Of a DNA stretch of 64,000 bases, positions 32,068 to 38,142 are shown in pieces (the first letter of the stretch is position 1; the number at the start of each line of letters is the position of its first letter). The translations under genes were made by a program, and so were the position numbers. The notes beneath the pieces are model-generated. The model did not search any database. It worked only from the letters and a program-made list of their open reading frames with translations, and had not been told where the DNA came from. Source of the DNA: Collinsella bouchesdurhonensis (lineage in GTDB: Bacteria > Actinomycetota > Coriobacteriia > Coriobacteriales > Coriobacteriaceae); NCBI RefSeq assembly GCF_900155365.1, contig NZ_LT699739.1, positions 490,333 through 554,332 of the forward strand. The letters are read 5' to 3'.

Positions 32068-32853
32068 CTACGGCAGACATGCCTCGATAACATCCTTGCC
32101 CTTGAGCGCATCAATCCAGCAGCTAGGGATGCCATCAAAGCTATAGACAATGCCAGCAAGGGCACCGGCAACGGCGGCGGTCGTATCGGTATCGTCGCCA
32201 AGGTTGACAGCCGTCAGCACGCACTCCGCGTAGCTCGACGTGTTGGCAAGGCACCAAAGCGCCGCTTCGTACGTATGGAGGACATACCCGCCAGAACTGA
32301 TCGAGCCACGCGGTTTTCCTGCGTCAACCCCGCCCATGGCCACGGCATCGCTAACCGACATGCCGTCGACAAGCGCCTTGGCAACGTGCACCATTTGCAC
32401 GCATGCCTCGGTTGAAGTCGGGTGCGCATGGGTGATGGCAGAAACCGCGCGAACCTCATCGTCCGTCACATCAAAAAACGCCAAAGGAACCGTGCGCATA
32501 AGCGAGCCATTGCCGTTATCGCGCTCGCCAGACAGACCATGGCCTGCTATAAGCGCACGCGCCGTCGCGTTGCCGATATCGAAAAGACCGTCGCACGTAT
32601 AGGCGCCGTCGCGATACCACGCCAGAAACCGCGCACGGATGCCATCGGTATCGATGCCGCCCAAATCACGATAGCTGTCGCATATCGCGAGCGTCATGGA
32701 TGTGTCGTCGCTCCAGGTGCCCACCGGCTGTCCATGGGTACCGAAGCCGACCATCCCGGTGCACTCGAACGTATCCCGCCCACGAAACTCAAACGGAACC
32801 CCCAGCGCATCGCCAACGGCCTGGCCGTATATACAGTCTCGAACATTTGCCAT
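32068..32853 (-). CDS. ADP-ribosylglycohydrolase family protein
   Basis: A 261-residue DraG-type hydrolase. The dimetal site motifs are visible: GDALGVPFEFRGR, GTWSDDTSMTLAICDS near residue 47, NGSLMRTVPLA, and GDDTDTTAAVAGALAG near the C-terminus. These enzymes remove ADP-ribose from arginine or serine side chains or from small molecules. No matching ADP-ribosyltransferase is adjacent. The target is unknown. Confidence 0.92.
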   Translation of the reverse strand: MANVRDCIYGQAVGDALGVPFEFRGRDTFECTGMVGFGTHGQPVGTWSDDTSMTLAICDSYRDLGGIDTDGIRARFLAWYRDGAYTCDGLFDIGNATARALIAGHGLSGERDNGNGSLMRTVPLAFFDVTDDEVRAVSAITHAHPTSTEACVQMVHVAKALVDGMSVSDAVAMGGVDAGKPRGSISSGGYVLHTYEAALWCLANTSSYAECVLTAVNLGDDTDTTAAVAGALAGIVYSFDGIPSCWIDALKGKDVIEACLP

Positions 32854-34365: not shown

Positions 34366-34401
34366 GTTTGATTACCGGCTAAATCGGCAATACTCCAAAA
34401 C

Positions 34402-35053
34402 GTTTTGCCTTTTGACCTGCTATTTTGCTGTTTGCGGCATCTCGCGCATATAGGAACCTCGCAATACCTCGCCGCTCTTCTCGTCGCTTGACGGAGCGAA
34501 TGCCGCAGCCGCATGATGCAGCTGCCAACCGGGTCAACCGGACGGCGGGAACCTCGATAACCGGATAGCGCAGAGAAAAGCGGCACGCAAAGTGCTCCCA
34601 TCGAGACAAGGGCAGCGATGACTCAACGATATGAACGGAGGTCCAGACATGGACGTTACGCAAATCATCGAACTGTTGGTGCTCATAATCGCGGCTATCG
34701 AACTCGGCCACTGAATCGGTAAGGATATCGGGCACCGAAAGAAATAGCCGCTCCCCGCACGACGCGGAAAACGGCCACCCTCCAACCTCGAAAGCTGAAA
34801 ACGAGCCGGCCACCCGCTAGCACCGGGTAACCGCCCTTGTCTCGATGGTAGCACTCAGCACGAAGACTACCAGCTAGAACAACGGCCTAAACAGAAAGGA
34901 AAAGACCATAATCGAGTATAGCACAACGAGCTGCATCAACACGATCAGTATCAGAGAGCTAGGACCAGACGAGCCGGCGAGAACGCTCTTTGGCATGACT
35001 TACGACGTGCAGCTCACGACTTCAGGTCGCAACTGCGGAATTGGGCGTTTCTG
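34402..35053. other. CRISPR insert 1 (652 bp), degraded phage-like cassette
   Basis: Between the two degenerate repeats. From about 34625 to 34920 it is homologous to insert 3 but decayed: the small membrane ORF is cut by a stop and the downstream ORF lost its start (ATA for ATG near 34911). The first 220 bp show no recognisable gene. Confidence 0.7.
34649..34714 (+). pseudogene. Truncated copy of the 32-residue membrane peptide gene
   Basis: Reads MDVTQIIELLVLIIAAIELGH and then TGA, where the intact copy at 35894 has Tyr-Arg. After the stop the frame still reads IGKDIGHRKK, so a base change created the stop. The ribosome site GGAGG is preserved. Confidence 0.65.
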
Positions 35054-35259
35054 GTTTGCTTACCGGCTAGATCGGCACTGCTCCAAAACATAGACGCATG
35101 GTCGCGCACCGGTCACGCGCTAGCCGAGCGCGGCATGTACGGCGCGCTCGCGGTCGCTCAGGTGCCAGCGCTCTGCGGCGGCACGCTCTGCGGCGGCGGC
35201 ACGCTGCATGAGAAAGGCCACACCCCCGCGCGGCCTTTTACGCTCTCGTTCTGTCGTCT

Positions 35260-35478
35260 CTAGGGCTGCGGCTCGGTATCGGGCCTGAAGTGGTCGCACG
35301 ACGCGCCGTCGAAAAGGATGGCGCGCGGCTTCCCCGTGCTCTCCCCGCGTCGGTAGATGAGGCAGTACGCCTTATCCGGGGCGTTCTCGAACGGTGCCGG
35401 CCCGTGCGCGAACAGGCACCCTTGGCACGCCTTGCAGTCGGCAGGCCTACCGCCCATCTGTTCCCCCGGATGAATCAT
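35260..35478 (-). CDS. Small cysteine-rich phage-type protein
   Basis: A 72-residue protein with CKACQGC near residue 20, a later single Cys in AYCLIYRRGE, and CDHF near the end, alternating with KPRAILFDG. This Cys-spaced small protein pattern is frequent in prophages and conjugative elements of Firmicutes and Actinobacteria, and is probably zinc-binding. The ATG at 35478 has a strong AAGGAGG site. It lies 10 bp after the stop of a gene fragment that is itself truncated by a CRISPR repeat. Function unknown. Confidence 0.6.
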   Translation of the reverse strand: MIHPGEQMGGRPADCKACQGCLFAHGPAPFENAPDKAYCLIYRRGESTGKPRAILFDGASCDHFRPDTEPQP

Positions 35479-35488
35479 GTCAGCCTCC

Positions 35489-35561
35489 TTAGGCCATTCG
35501 CTTCTTCGGTCCGGTCCATTCGTCAGGGTCCTGCTGGAACAGGTCATAGCCAGCCTCGGGA
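35489..35561 (-). pseudogene. C-terminal fragment of a phage-like gene cut by a CRISPR repeat
   Basis: The last codons read GYDLFQQDPDEWTGPKKRMA and stop at 35489. Upstream in this frame the sequence runs directly into the repeat at 35562, so the rest of the gene is missing. The peptide resembles the tail of phage-encoded proteins, perhaps a DNA methylase, but it is too short to name. Confidence 0.5.
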
Positions 35562-35859
35562 GTTTGATTACCAGCTAGATCGGCACTGCTCCAAAACAGG
35601 GCGTGAGGGCGTGCCAGAGAGCAATCGTTTGATTACCAGTTAGATCGGCACTGCTCCAAAACCGCTTCCGCTGCTCGACCACGACTACCGTCGTTTGATT
35701 ACCAGTTAGATCGGCACTGCTCCAAAACGGGAGGTAGAGAATGGCTATCGCGAACGGGTTTGATTACCAGTTAGATCGGCACTGCTCCAAAACATCGGGG
35801 GAGGCGCGCGATGACGGAGGCCAGTTTGATTACCAGTTAGATCGGCACTGCTCCAAAAC

Positions 35860-36282
35860 AGCCGACTCGACGACATGAACGGAGGTCCAGAACATGGACG
35901 TTACGGAAACAATCGCACTGTTGGCGCTCATAATCGCAGCTATCGAACTCGGCTACCGAATCGGTAAGGATATCGGACGCCGAAAGAAATAGCCGCCCCC
36001 GAGAAACGGAAACGGCCACTCCCCAACCTGAAAAGTTGTAAACGAGTCGGCCACCCGCGGCAACGGGTAACCGCCCTTGTCTCGATGGTAGCACTCAACC
36101 AAACACGATTGCTACCAGCTAGAACAACGGTCTAACAGAAAGGAAAGACCATGACCGAGTATACCACCGACAGCCATCTCAACGCAAACTGCATCCGCAT
36201 CGCCGAGGAGATTGAAGCCCACGCAAACGGCAGGGCATACACCGACGATAACGGAGACGTCGTTATCCTTGACGGCGACGAT
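35860..36282. other. CRISPR insert 3 (423 bp), intact two-gene cassette
   Basis: Flanked by repeats at 35824 and 36283. It holds two small plus-strand genes separated by a 160-bp stretch with the words TGTCTCGATGGTAGCACTCA and TGCTACCAGCTAGAACAACG. Most of it is repeated in decayed form in insert 1. Confidence 0.75.
35894..35992 (+). CDS. 32-residue putative membrane peptide inside CRISPR array
   Basis: MDVTETIALLALIIAAIELG is followed by YRIGKDIGRRKK: one hydrophobic helix and a basic tail, with GGAGG 8 bases upstream of ATG. The helix length and positive-inside tail fit a small single-pass inner-membrane peptide such as those of phages (holin-like or superinfection modulators) or type I toxins. 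It is too short for homology. A decayed paralogue in insert 1 with the same ribosome site supports it being a real gene. Confidence 0.55.
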   Translation: MDVTETIALLALIIAAIELGYRIGKDIGRRKK

Positions 36283-36288
36283 GTTTGA
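36151..36288 (+). CDS. 45-residue acidic protein whose stop codon lies in a CRISPR repeat
   Basis: Begins MTEYTTDSHLNANCIRIAEE and ends VVILDGDDV. The last Val codon and TGA are the first six bases of the repeat at 36283, so the original gene probably continued and was truncated. AAAGGAAAG lies 6 bases upstream of the ATG. Small acidic proteins of this kind are common in phage early or accessory regions. It follows the membrane peptide gene by 158 bp. Confidence 0.5.
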   Translation: MTEYTTDSHLNANCIRIAEEIEAHANGRAYTDDNGDVVILDGDDV

Positions 36289-36383
36289 TTACCAGTTAGA
36301 TCGGCACTGCTCCAAAACGTTGCCTACTCATACCGCCTGCCCCTCCAGTTTGATTACCAGTTAGATCGGCACTGCTCCAAAAC

Positions 36384-36609
36384 TGATTTGCGGGAAGGCC
36401 TTCAAATCGCCCATATCATTCGAATAGGCCGTCTGTCCGCCGAAATTGTCTAGCTCTTCTTGAGCTGTCTCCGCGATTTTGTACCATTGGCAGAGCAGCG
36501 AGAGCGCGGGCACATCAGACTGCGAAAACGCGCGTCCTTGCGTCAGCTCGTCCCATTTAGCGGATTTGAACGCATCCGATTCGATGCCAGGGGGCTTTGT
36601 GATGGGCAT
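36384..36609 (-). pseudogene. Phage terminase small subunit (P27 family), 5' fragment
   Basis: About 75 phage-derived residues: MPITKPPGIESDAFKSAKWD, then LTQGRAFSQSDVPALSLLCQ and WYKIAETAQEELDNFGGQTA, ending DLKAFPQIS. This matches the N-terminal half of P27-type small terminases (the LLCxWY helix and the G....N...K.P.I block). The family normally continues with a helix ending in LGLxP, about 50 more residues. Here the frame runs into the CRISPR repeat, which encodes FGAVPI and a stop. The cut is exactly at the repeat edge. Confidence 0.78.
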
Positions 36610-36770
36610 GCGATCACATCCAATCGGTAATAAAAAAAGCTGACCCGAAGGACGGCTAGAAATTTCTTACGTTTTTGCAGAGTCAGAAATCGCGCATTCA
36701 CTGGTCATTTCAAAAATCCCACCATGGCGGTTGGCTTGAGCTTGCCCGGAATTGCTTTTTGGCGATTTCG

Positions 36771-37130
36771 CTACTCGATGAACTTCTCGACATAGCGGCG
36801 AACGATCGTCTCGCAGATGTCTTTTAGAAGCGGATAAGGCATGTCAACGCCAGCAGCCTTGAGGGTGTGAATGCATATACGCCAAACATCGGGCTGCTCA
36901 ATCATCCGCAGGAAATCGGCGCCGCCATCCGTAAGCCCGTGAACCGAACCGCCTAGGCATATATCGCCGTTGAACTCTAGCGAACTGGAAATAAGCCCCT
37001 CGCGCTTCATGCGTTTAAGTTCATCAACCACGGTGGAGCGATCAATGAAACCAGAGAACTCATCGAACGGCAGCTCATTGCTTTTGGAGATGAATGTGAG
37101 CAATGAGCGCATTGTTTCGTAATCACGCAT
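36771..37130 (-). CDS. DUF2513-like protein
   Basis: A 119-residue protein. Residues 1-60 look like a winged helix (MRSLLTFISKSNELPFDEFS...VVDELKRMKREGLISSS), then SVHGLTDGGADFLRMIEQPDVW, and a tail helix AAGVDMPYPLLKDICETIVRRYV. The LTxxGxxFLxxIxxxxVW block and the tail fit DUF2513, often carried by phages and islands. A regulatory or immunity role is inference. It follows the YrhB-like gene by 2 bp, so they are co-transcribed. Confidence 0.6.
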   Translation of the reverse strand: MRDYETMRSLLTFISKSNELPFDEFSGFIDRSTVVDELKRMKREGLISSSLEFNGDICLGGSVHGLTDGGADFLRMIEQPDVWRICIHTLKAAGVDMPYPLLKDICETIVRRYVEKFIE

Positions 37131-37132
37131 GG

Positions 37133-37411
37133 CTAATCACCGTCAAATTGCTCAATAGGGATTTCTGTAAATTTGCCATCTAGGCTCATTTTGTAATCGT
37201 GAAGCTCATCACCGATTTCATCAAGAACGGCAGCGAAATTCAATGCGCTGCCATCGCTCTTCATGACAGCACACGGCCCATTCCCACCAATGCTCATGTC
37301 ATCATATTTACTGAAAACAAATGCATTCTCATACTCAGTGCAAAAGTCGAAAAAAGATTTATCGCTCATCTTGCTAAGCGCTATATCTCTTGCAGCGTTG
37401 ATATCAATCAT
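37133..37411 (-). CDS. YrhB-like small protein, possible immunity protein
   Basis: A 92-residue protein with NAFVFSKYDDMSIGGNGPCA and VMKSDGSALNFAAVLDEIGD. The pattern of an aromatic strand, a G(G)NGP loop, a V-x-K-x-D/T-G turn and a trailing acidic helix is that of YrhB-domain proteins, several of which act as immunity proteins in polymorphic toxin systems. There is no toxin next to it. AAAGGAG lies 7 bases before the ATG. Confidence 0.5.
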   Translation of the reverse strand: MIDINAARDIALSKMSDKSFFDFCTEYENAFVFSKYDDMSIGGNGPCAVMKSDGSALNFAAVLDEIGDELHDYKMSLDGKFTEIPIEQFDGD

Positions 37412-37614
37412 GGAGCACTCCTTTAGTATTTGCGTGAAGTAACGGAATCTTTCGCTCTATCAGATATCCGCAGGTTATCCGTCCTTACGATGTTCACGCT
37501 TCCCGGCTTCGCTCTTTTCTGAATCTGTTTGATTACCAGTTAGATCGGCACTGCTTCAAAACCATTGGAACAAATTCCCCACTGCGAGAGGGACGGCCGA
37601 TCCAACCGAATTAG

Positions 37615-37913
37615 CTATTTATGCTCCAAAAACCGCAGGTCAATAGCCATTTTTTGCTCATGTTCATACGAGCTGTTATCATGCTTATTTTCCAATAAAA
37701 GCACTTTTAATTTCAAGAAAAATATATGCTCATAGAGCTGTTCAAGCTCATTTTTCGTCAAAAAGATTTCGAATTTACGAAGTAGCGCCCACACCCTGAC
37801 TTCAACGAAGCAGCCACACGCGCAAACAAAGCGCCATTTTCAATCTCGAAGACCGACGTCTCCCCCGCCTCTACCTCCAACGGATACTCGAAACCAGAAA
37901 ATACCAATCTCAT
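37615..37913 (-). pseudogene. csn2: csn2 remnant (type II-A adaptation protein) with internal deletion
   Basis: The frame starts MRLVFSGFEYPLEVEAGETS and breaks after about 50 residues at KSF-stop. A shifted frame then reads FEIFLTKNELEQLYEHIFFL, KLKVLLLENKHDNSSYEHEQ and ends FLEHK at 37615. These are the N-terminal strands and the C-terminal helix/LLLEN block of Csn2. The total is 299 bp against the usual 660 or so, so roughly the middle half is deleted. The ATG overlaps the cas2 stop (ATGA), the normal cas2-csn2 arrangement. Confidence 0.75.
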
Positions 37914-38142
37914 AGAATAAGAAGCTCTTCCATCGTATCAACCTCATCGTAAGCTTCGCGATTGCCCGTTATATATTCCATTGTCGCAAACTGCGACTCC
38001 ATGACGCGCAAAACCTGAACTAAGCCAGAAGGCGGACGGTGCTTCCTCAGACGTCGAACAGCATTTCCCGCCGCACCATCGTTTACAACGAGTTTTGCGT
38101 AAACTGATTCCTGCAACCCTACCTATAAGCGGTTTTATCGCC
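37910..38142 (-). pseudogene. cas2: cas2 remnant
   Basis: The readable part, LQESVYAKLVVN...RRLRKHRPPSGLVQVLRVMESQ, FATMEYITGN and a DTMEELLIL end, is the C-terminal two thirds of a type II Cas2. Just upstream a different frame gives GDKTAYR followed by a stop, matching the conserved xDKxAYRxF of Cas2. The segment between (about 10-12 residues) and the first beta strand with the metal-site aspartate are missing. The gene is therefore dead. No cas1 or cas9 lies upstream; the next sequence is a terminator of another operon. Confidence 0.8.

Follow-up and report, generated by a model that had tools for sequence, protein, structure and literature searches.

The window analysed here, a stretch of 64,000 nucleotides from Collinsella bouchesdurhonensis (contig NZ_LT699739.1), contains an array of clustered regularly interspaced short palindromic repeats (CRISPR) in which four intervals between repeats are 423–1143 bp long, in the company of five normal spacers of 29–30 bp. 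Arrays with such long intervals are neither unique to this genome nor generally an assembly artefact; the phenomenon is real and broader than the window sequence alone could show. The long intervals are probably, and we say so with modest confidence, giant spacers: untrimmed phage or chromosomal DNA that was integrated by Cas1-Cas2 and then outlasted the normal units of the array.

Long intervals across Coriobacteriia

A scan of 84,980 species genomes (one genome per species) with a degenerate form of the repeat revealed related arrays spread across Coriobacteriia, many of them with long gaps. Counting as long every interval of at least 140 bp that has a repeat with no more than 8 mismatches at each end, we found 68 long intervals of 144–2266 bp (median 652) in 15 Coriobacteriia, i.e. 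the window genome and at least 14 others. Among the carriers are the isolates Lancefieldella rimae ATCC 49626, Adlercreutzia agrestimuris DSM 109821 and Collinsella sp. WCA1-178-WT-3 (G022). Every interval in the examined stretch of A. agrestimuris is long, and the single-contig genome G189, which has cas1, cas2, csn2 and a full-length Cas9, combines 56 normal spacers with nine long intervals. An indel-tolerant screen uncovered five hidden repeats in four intervals (Lrimae_L6, D16-34_L11, Aagrest_L4 and, with two in reverse orientation, D16-34_b_L5_1889) and, at the sensitivity used, none in the remaining long intervals. On the opposite side of cas9, D16-34 has a further, decayed array, which also contains long intervals (L209 6198–11252). 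A keyword search of a partial literature set found no report of kilobase-long spacers.

Where close homologues were available, contiguous donor DNA proved to be joined exactly to the repeats on both sides. The 753-bp and 1106-bp intervals of L. rimae are 95% and 94% identical to the sister species G144 (the first 34 bases of the former being more diverged), and a 686-bp interval of Tractidigestivibacter is 93% identical to G263; all three align over their full length, and the alignments reach the repeat at both ends. The 2235-bp insert of G022 is colinear over 1.94 kb with a prophage of G001. The L. rimae pieces are chromosomal: one comprises the beginning of ilvE, an entire DUF488 gene and the last part of murI (DUF488 assigned by Pfam, ilvE and murI by eye), the other an entire gene of 203 aa, flanked by the beginning of one gene and the last part of an M20 peptidase gene (by eye). 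The middle of each is single-copy in L. rimae. In G263, the counterpart of the Tractidigestivibacter piece is close to a gene that resembles, by eye, a terminase small subunit. Genes in other intervals encode a terminase large subunit, a Mu-F minor head protein, a scaffold protein, a head protease, HipA, Fic and a restriction-like endonuclease, and two long intervals of A. agrestimuris have one intact tRNA-Trp each (L161 4634–4707 and 7522–7595), beside a phage scaffold-like gene. The recognisable genes come mostly from the packaging and head end of phage genomes (terS, terL, Mu-F, protease, scaffold), a bias that possibly reflects free DNA ends near cos.

The window array is read on the minus strand (leftward transcription), with the leader at the right and the oldest end, where the repeats are degenerate, at the left. 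Its ten 36-bp repeats lie in register, and the five normal spacers and four inserts (I1–I4, from left to right) described in the initial annotation were confirmed in full (Table 1). The repeats differ from their consensus at 0–5 positions, with no copies on the reverse strand; they are the sole copies in the 1.88-Mb genome, and a reversed-pattern control gave none. From the left, repeats 1–4 vary stepwise (CCGGCTA, CCAGCTA, CCAGTTA), as expected if every acquisition duplicates the leader repeat, so that one interval corresponds to one acquisition step.

The phage origin that had been proposed for the inserts is borne out by a terminase-small-subunit gene in I4, related phage-like modules in I1 and I3, and homology to prophages of other Collinsella. 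The I4 gene matches PHROG 83 (E=4e-4; Pfam Terminase_4 was below the cut-off), and its homology to the same gene in four other genomes (G001, G012, G010, G047) begins within 2–3 bases of the repeat. The modules in I1 and I3 are ~86–90% identical to each other and, judged by sequence, are two captures of one phage module; I3 also has relatives with ~71–76% DNA identity at several sites in other Collinsella genomes. As the initial annotation had observed, genes are cut at repeat borders in both orientations, the I4 gene on the minus and the I1/I3 module on the plus strand. The small open reading frame (ORF) in I2 had no family match. INPHARED phage records contained nothing related to the window inserts, to the G022 insert or to the intervals of L. 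rimae, EggMAG69 and G125; the G189 intervals matched there only a 77-bp stretch in Pseudomonas phages. Matches in IMG/VR were limited to distant terminase-small-subunit relatives.

Long intervals are concentrated at old array ends and in decayed arrays. The six arrays that have both intact cas genes and long intervals hold 26 of the latter, and these cluster at or close to the oldest end (mean relative position 0.098; 0 of 20,000 permutations); the one furthest from it is at index 21 of 65 in G189. Long intervals account for 39 of 80 intervals in orphan or cas-broken arrays versus 26 of 616 in intact ones (Fisher P=1.7e-24, with intervals within one array not being independent), orphan status being judged on the retrieved flank, which ranged from 2.6 kb (EggMAG69) to ~8 kb. 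The age pattern alone does not discriminate between explanations, since slow conversion by recombination would give a similar one.

Origin of the long intervals

Integration of arbitrary DNA exactly between repeats is the activity of Cas1-Cas2. Our explanation is that this integrase would occasionally join both ends of an untrimmed fragment of 0.1–2.3 kb to the leader-side repeat, which would be duplicated as in normal acquisition; Cas9 would in such events neither trim the fragment to 30 bp nor select a protospacer-adjacent motif (PAM). Slippage between 36-bp repeats that are 66 bp apart would then delete normal units, and repeats 0.5–2 kb apart would rarely mispair, so that giant spacers would accumulate, relative to normal ones, at old array ends and in orphan arrays; long capture would need to occur only at a low rate. 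Untrimmed integration predicts inserts that are long, PAM-less and unoriented, and possibly self DNA, which is the pattern observed. Replication misalignment between repeats drops with wider spacing (PMC8047081), and normal units would thus be lost first and long ones kept. According to a study on the type II-A system of Streptococcus pyogenes, purified Cas1-Cas2 without Cas9 integrates unprocessed substrates at full sites and in either orientation; once Cas9 is part of the complex, prespacers are trimmed in vitro to ~30 bp via the HNH domain, and Cas9 assists, as shown by earlier work cited there, in the selection of PAM-flanked spacers (PMC8034620). The enzyme, the missing trimming, the part of Cas9 and the survivorship we infer rather than observe directly.

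Several points weigh against this explanation. Integration of kilobase DNA by Cas1-Cas2 is not known to us. An intact Cas9 accompanies several of the arrays with long intervals; in L. rimae, cas9 appears to be gone and yet the newest spacers are normal, which argues against a simple switch to long spacers upon loss of Cas9. In I1 a perfect PAM (TGAAG) follows the leader-side 29 nt, exactly where recombination through a spacer would place it (see below). In the S. pyogenes study, immunity was assayed only with spacers of 30–45 bp (PMC8034620). Finally, some interval ends recur within 0–5 nt in related intervals: the leader-side start is shared by L3 and L7 and by L8 and L13 of A. agrestimuris, and within 3 nt by L0 and L5 of D16-34_b, and in one case, A. 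agrestimuris versus D16-34, the far end coincides within 1 nt. Such recurrence likely stems from array duplication and shared ancestry, as a lone repeat in G144, in another gene context (L287 9126–9519), is accompanied by 358 bp that are 95% identical to part of an L. rimae interval; preferred donor ends are possible.

The initial annotation had favoured a different route, in which two neighbouring spacers taken from the same phage would pair with its genome, and a double crossover would replace everything between them with the segment that separates the protospacers. Varble is reported, in a citation in PMC8616872, to have described spacer–phage recombination in staphylococci in 2019, and adjacent spacers from one phage do exist: s60 and s61 of G189 match one prophage 2.4–2.5 kb apart in opposite orientation (G014:C6:62094/64555; G292:C2:35558/38019). 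The age bias also fits a slow conversion of this kind. A crossover would make the leader-side ~30 bp of an insert a former spacer, and a PAM is then expected next to it inside the insert. The PAM was determined as NGAAR from near-exact protospacers of G022, D16-34 and G189 spacers (AGAAA, TGAAG, CGAAA, CGAAG, TGAAA; one G022 site conforms when shifted by one base, and the PAMs of G189 spacer 60 are variants). NGAAR followed the leader-side 28–31 nt in 6 of the 68 long intervals, versus a control average of 4.1, and no PAM enrichment was seen at any offset from either interval end, including the signature of Cas9-cut ends. A crossover would also require a PAM directly outside the far end; there, the five intervals with homologues have CCAAT, GCAAC, GTGCG, GAGCT and ~CGACC, none of which is a PAM. 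Among the window inserts, I4 comes near besides I1 (TGAAC after 30 nt); I2, I3 and the G022 insert do not fit. Moreover, none of 735 normal spacers, from a set with one genome per species, matches any interval end, A. agrestimuris has long intervals only, and the two L. rimae segments of 0.75–1.1 kb would require two chromosomal spacers from the same kilobase, twice. We regard the double crossover as unlikely overall, if less so for I1, and the related proposal that the terminal 30 bp of the inserts are former spacers found a full match in that insert alone. What stands from the initial annotation is the array as a landing site for phage DNA and, of all the readings, its alternative of aberrant long-spacer uptake fits best.

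In another variant, recombination or template switching would lengthen a single genuine spacer on the leader side into phage DNA and then lead back to the next repeat; this would account for interval pairs with a common leader-side end and differing far ends. The lack of a PAM behind the shared ends and across the set makes this variant distinctly improbable, as does the coincidence of some far ends, too, within 1–5 nt; we know of no mechanism that would return exactly to the repeat border. Site-specific insertion by another integrase or a transposase, or an eroded prophage around the repeats, has a precedent in one interval (1981 bp) of Olsenella Marseille-P4559, which is an ordinary insertion sequence (IS) with a DDE transposase (L174 9732–11522) and the only place where a transposon was found. 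For the long intervals at large, this is very unlikely: no end motif is common to the 68 intervals, the donor sequences of L. rimae intervals that adjoin each other map to three different sites in G144, and no transposase or integrase was found among the I1–I4 proteins tested. An eroded integrated prophage, another alternative in the initial annotation, is also at odds with two related copies of one module in I1 and I3 and with pieces of 0.4–1.1 kb devoid of an integrase. Chimeric assembly, in which reads join the array to a phage contig via shared 30-mers, could be suspected from the draft state of the window genome (15 contigs) and from the metagenomic origin of several other arrays; as a general explanation it is barely credible, given the same pattern in three isolates and one single-contig genome, interval middles that are single-copy per genome except for related intervals, and interval ends that are not spacers. 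For the window array itself an assembly error is unlikely.

Two further candidates were rejected. Breakage inside a spacer followed by repair with foreign DNA conflicts with donor homology that reaches the repeat itself, and Campbell-type integration through a single spacer does not fit the four window inserts, which have no direct 30-bp repeat at both ends.

The orphan locus in the window

Next to the array lie only fragments of csn2 and the C-terminus of cas2, rather than the adjoining cas9, cas1, cas2 and csn2 of a type II-A locus, and cas1 was not found in the window genome. The 36-bp repeat, the 29–30-bp spacers and a leader homologous to that of a csn2-bearing locus are those of type II-A. 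That locus belongs to G022, which alone among the other genomes of the genus has a near-identical repeat (at most 2 mismatches). There, an array of 85 intervals adjoins csn2, cas2, cas1 and cas9; this homologous locus is complete, with the operon and leader to the right of a minus-strand array. The G022-like leader, the broken csn2, the last 68 codons of cas2 and the lack of cas1 mark the window array as an orphan, left over from a decayed type II-A CRISPR-Cas locus of Coriobacteriia; its oldest end is on the left. No Rfam families were found in the array. Past their distal ends, both Collinsella arrays have an ADP-ribosylglycohydrolase-like gene (by eye), which is oriented oppositely in the two genomes (window 32068–32853, minus strand; L063 8247–9035, plus strand).

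Table 1. Features of the CRISPR array and its cas remnants (positions in the window).
Feature	Position	Strand	Remarks
Repeat 1, leader-distal, oldest, degenerate	34366–34401	-	5 differences from consensus
Long interval I1, 652 bp, module of small phage-like genes, homologous to I3	34402–35053	.	reading frame interrupted by stop
Repeat 2	35054–35089	-	
Long interval I2, 472 bp	35090–35561	.	one complete small ORF, minus strand, ~72 aa from likely ATG
Repeat 3	35562–35597	-	
Normal spacer, 29 bp	35598–35626	-	
Repeat 4	35627–35662	-	
Normal spacer, 30 bp	35663–35692	-	
Repeat 5	35693–35728	-	
Normal spacer, 29 bp	35729–35757	-	
Repeat 6	35758–35793	-	
Normal spacer, 30 bp	35794–35823	-	
Repeat 7	35824–35859	-	
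Long interval I3, 423 bp, phage-like small genes on plus strand	35860–36282	.	last gene cut by repeat
Repeat 8	36283–36318	-	
Normal spacer, 29 bp	36319–36347	-	
Repeat 9	36348–36383	-	
Long interval I4, 1143 bp	36384–37526	-	5' part of terminase small subunit gene (to 36609) and two complete small ORFs (36771–37130, 37133–37411)
Repeat 10, leader-proximal	37527–37562	-	
Leader remnant	37563–37620	-	homologous to leader of G022 array
Broken csn2	37621–37937	-	two tblastn pieces
Truncated cas2	37913–38116	-	C-terminal 68 aa, 87% identical to G022 Cas2

In L. rimae ATCC 49626 (L171), csn2 and cas2 look intact, the match to cas1 starts at residue 64, and there is no match to Cas9 within ~7.8 kb upstream; the locus is possibly a natural Cas9-less type II-A adaptation module. 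In Olsenella Marseille-P4559, cas9 is broken near residue 698.

Relation to known systems

The long intervals share the type of locus with type II-A adaptation (csn2, cas1, cas2 and cas9 beside homologous arrays) and, with Cas1-Cas2 acting without Cas9, the insertion exactly between repeats, the lack of orientation preference and the lack of a PAM (PMC8034620). They differ from such adaptation in their natural lengths (0.14–2.3 kb versus 28–31 bp), in having chromosomal donors as well, and in their location at old array ends. ISs and miniature inverted-repeat transposable elements (MITEs) that split CRISPR arrays likewise interrupt them with ~1 kb of DNA; the ISs enter repeats or spacers and carry a transposase (PMC4852346), whereas the long intervals, the one in Olsenella excepted, show neither trait.

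Phage DNA is reportedly joined to CRISPR arrays at array borders in the staphylococcal recombination mentioned above as well, but that process needs spacer homology and hence PAM-flanked ends, which were not found here. Phage DNA within a CRISPR array is also a feature of S. pyogenes, for which Varble reportedly described integrase-mediated insertion of whole prophages into CRISPR loci in 2021; the pieces found here, in contrast, are short, truncate genes and come without integrase or attachment (att) sites. The serial storage of gene-sized DNA between repeated sites recalls the cassette arrays of integrons. Unlike those, the intervals are bordered by CRISPR repeats, no attC or IntI is known here, and most pieces truncate genes at both ends. 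We doubt the bolder proposition that uptake of kilobase DNA is a genuine, albeit rare, mode of the type II-A integrase in Coriobacteriia, and that the arrays serve, in the manner of integrons, as stores of intact small genes (DUF488, HipA-like and Fic-like genes, tRNA-Trp) that survive speciation and can provide the host with genes.

A CRISPR array can hold entire genes and kilobase-sized records of phages and chromosomes, and standard array finders restricted to short spacers would split or miss arrays with long intervals. Spacer length is thought to be tightly set; the machinery for 30-letter snippets can apparently store whole small genes, and arrays of Coriobacteriia that keep untrimmed, PAM-less by-products would be natural material on the coupling of spacer length and PAM choice in vivo.

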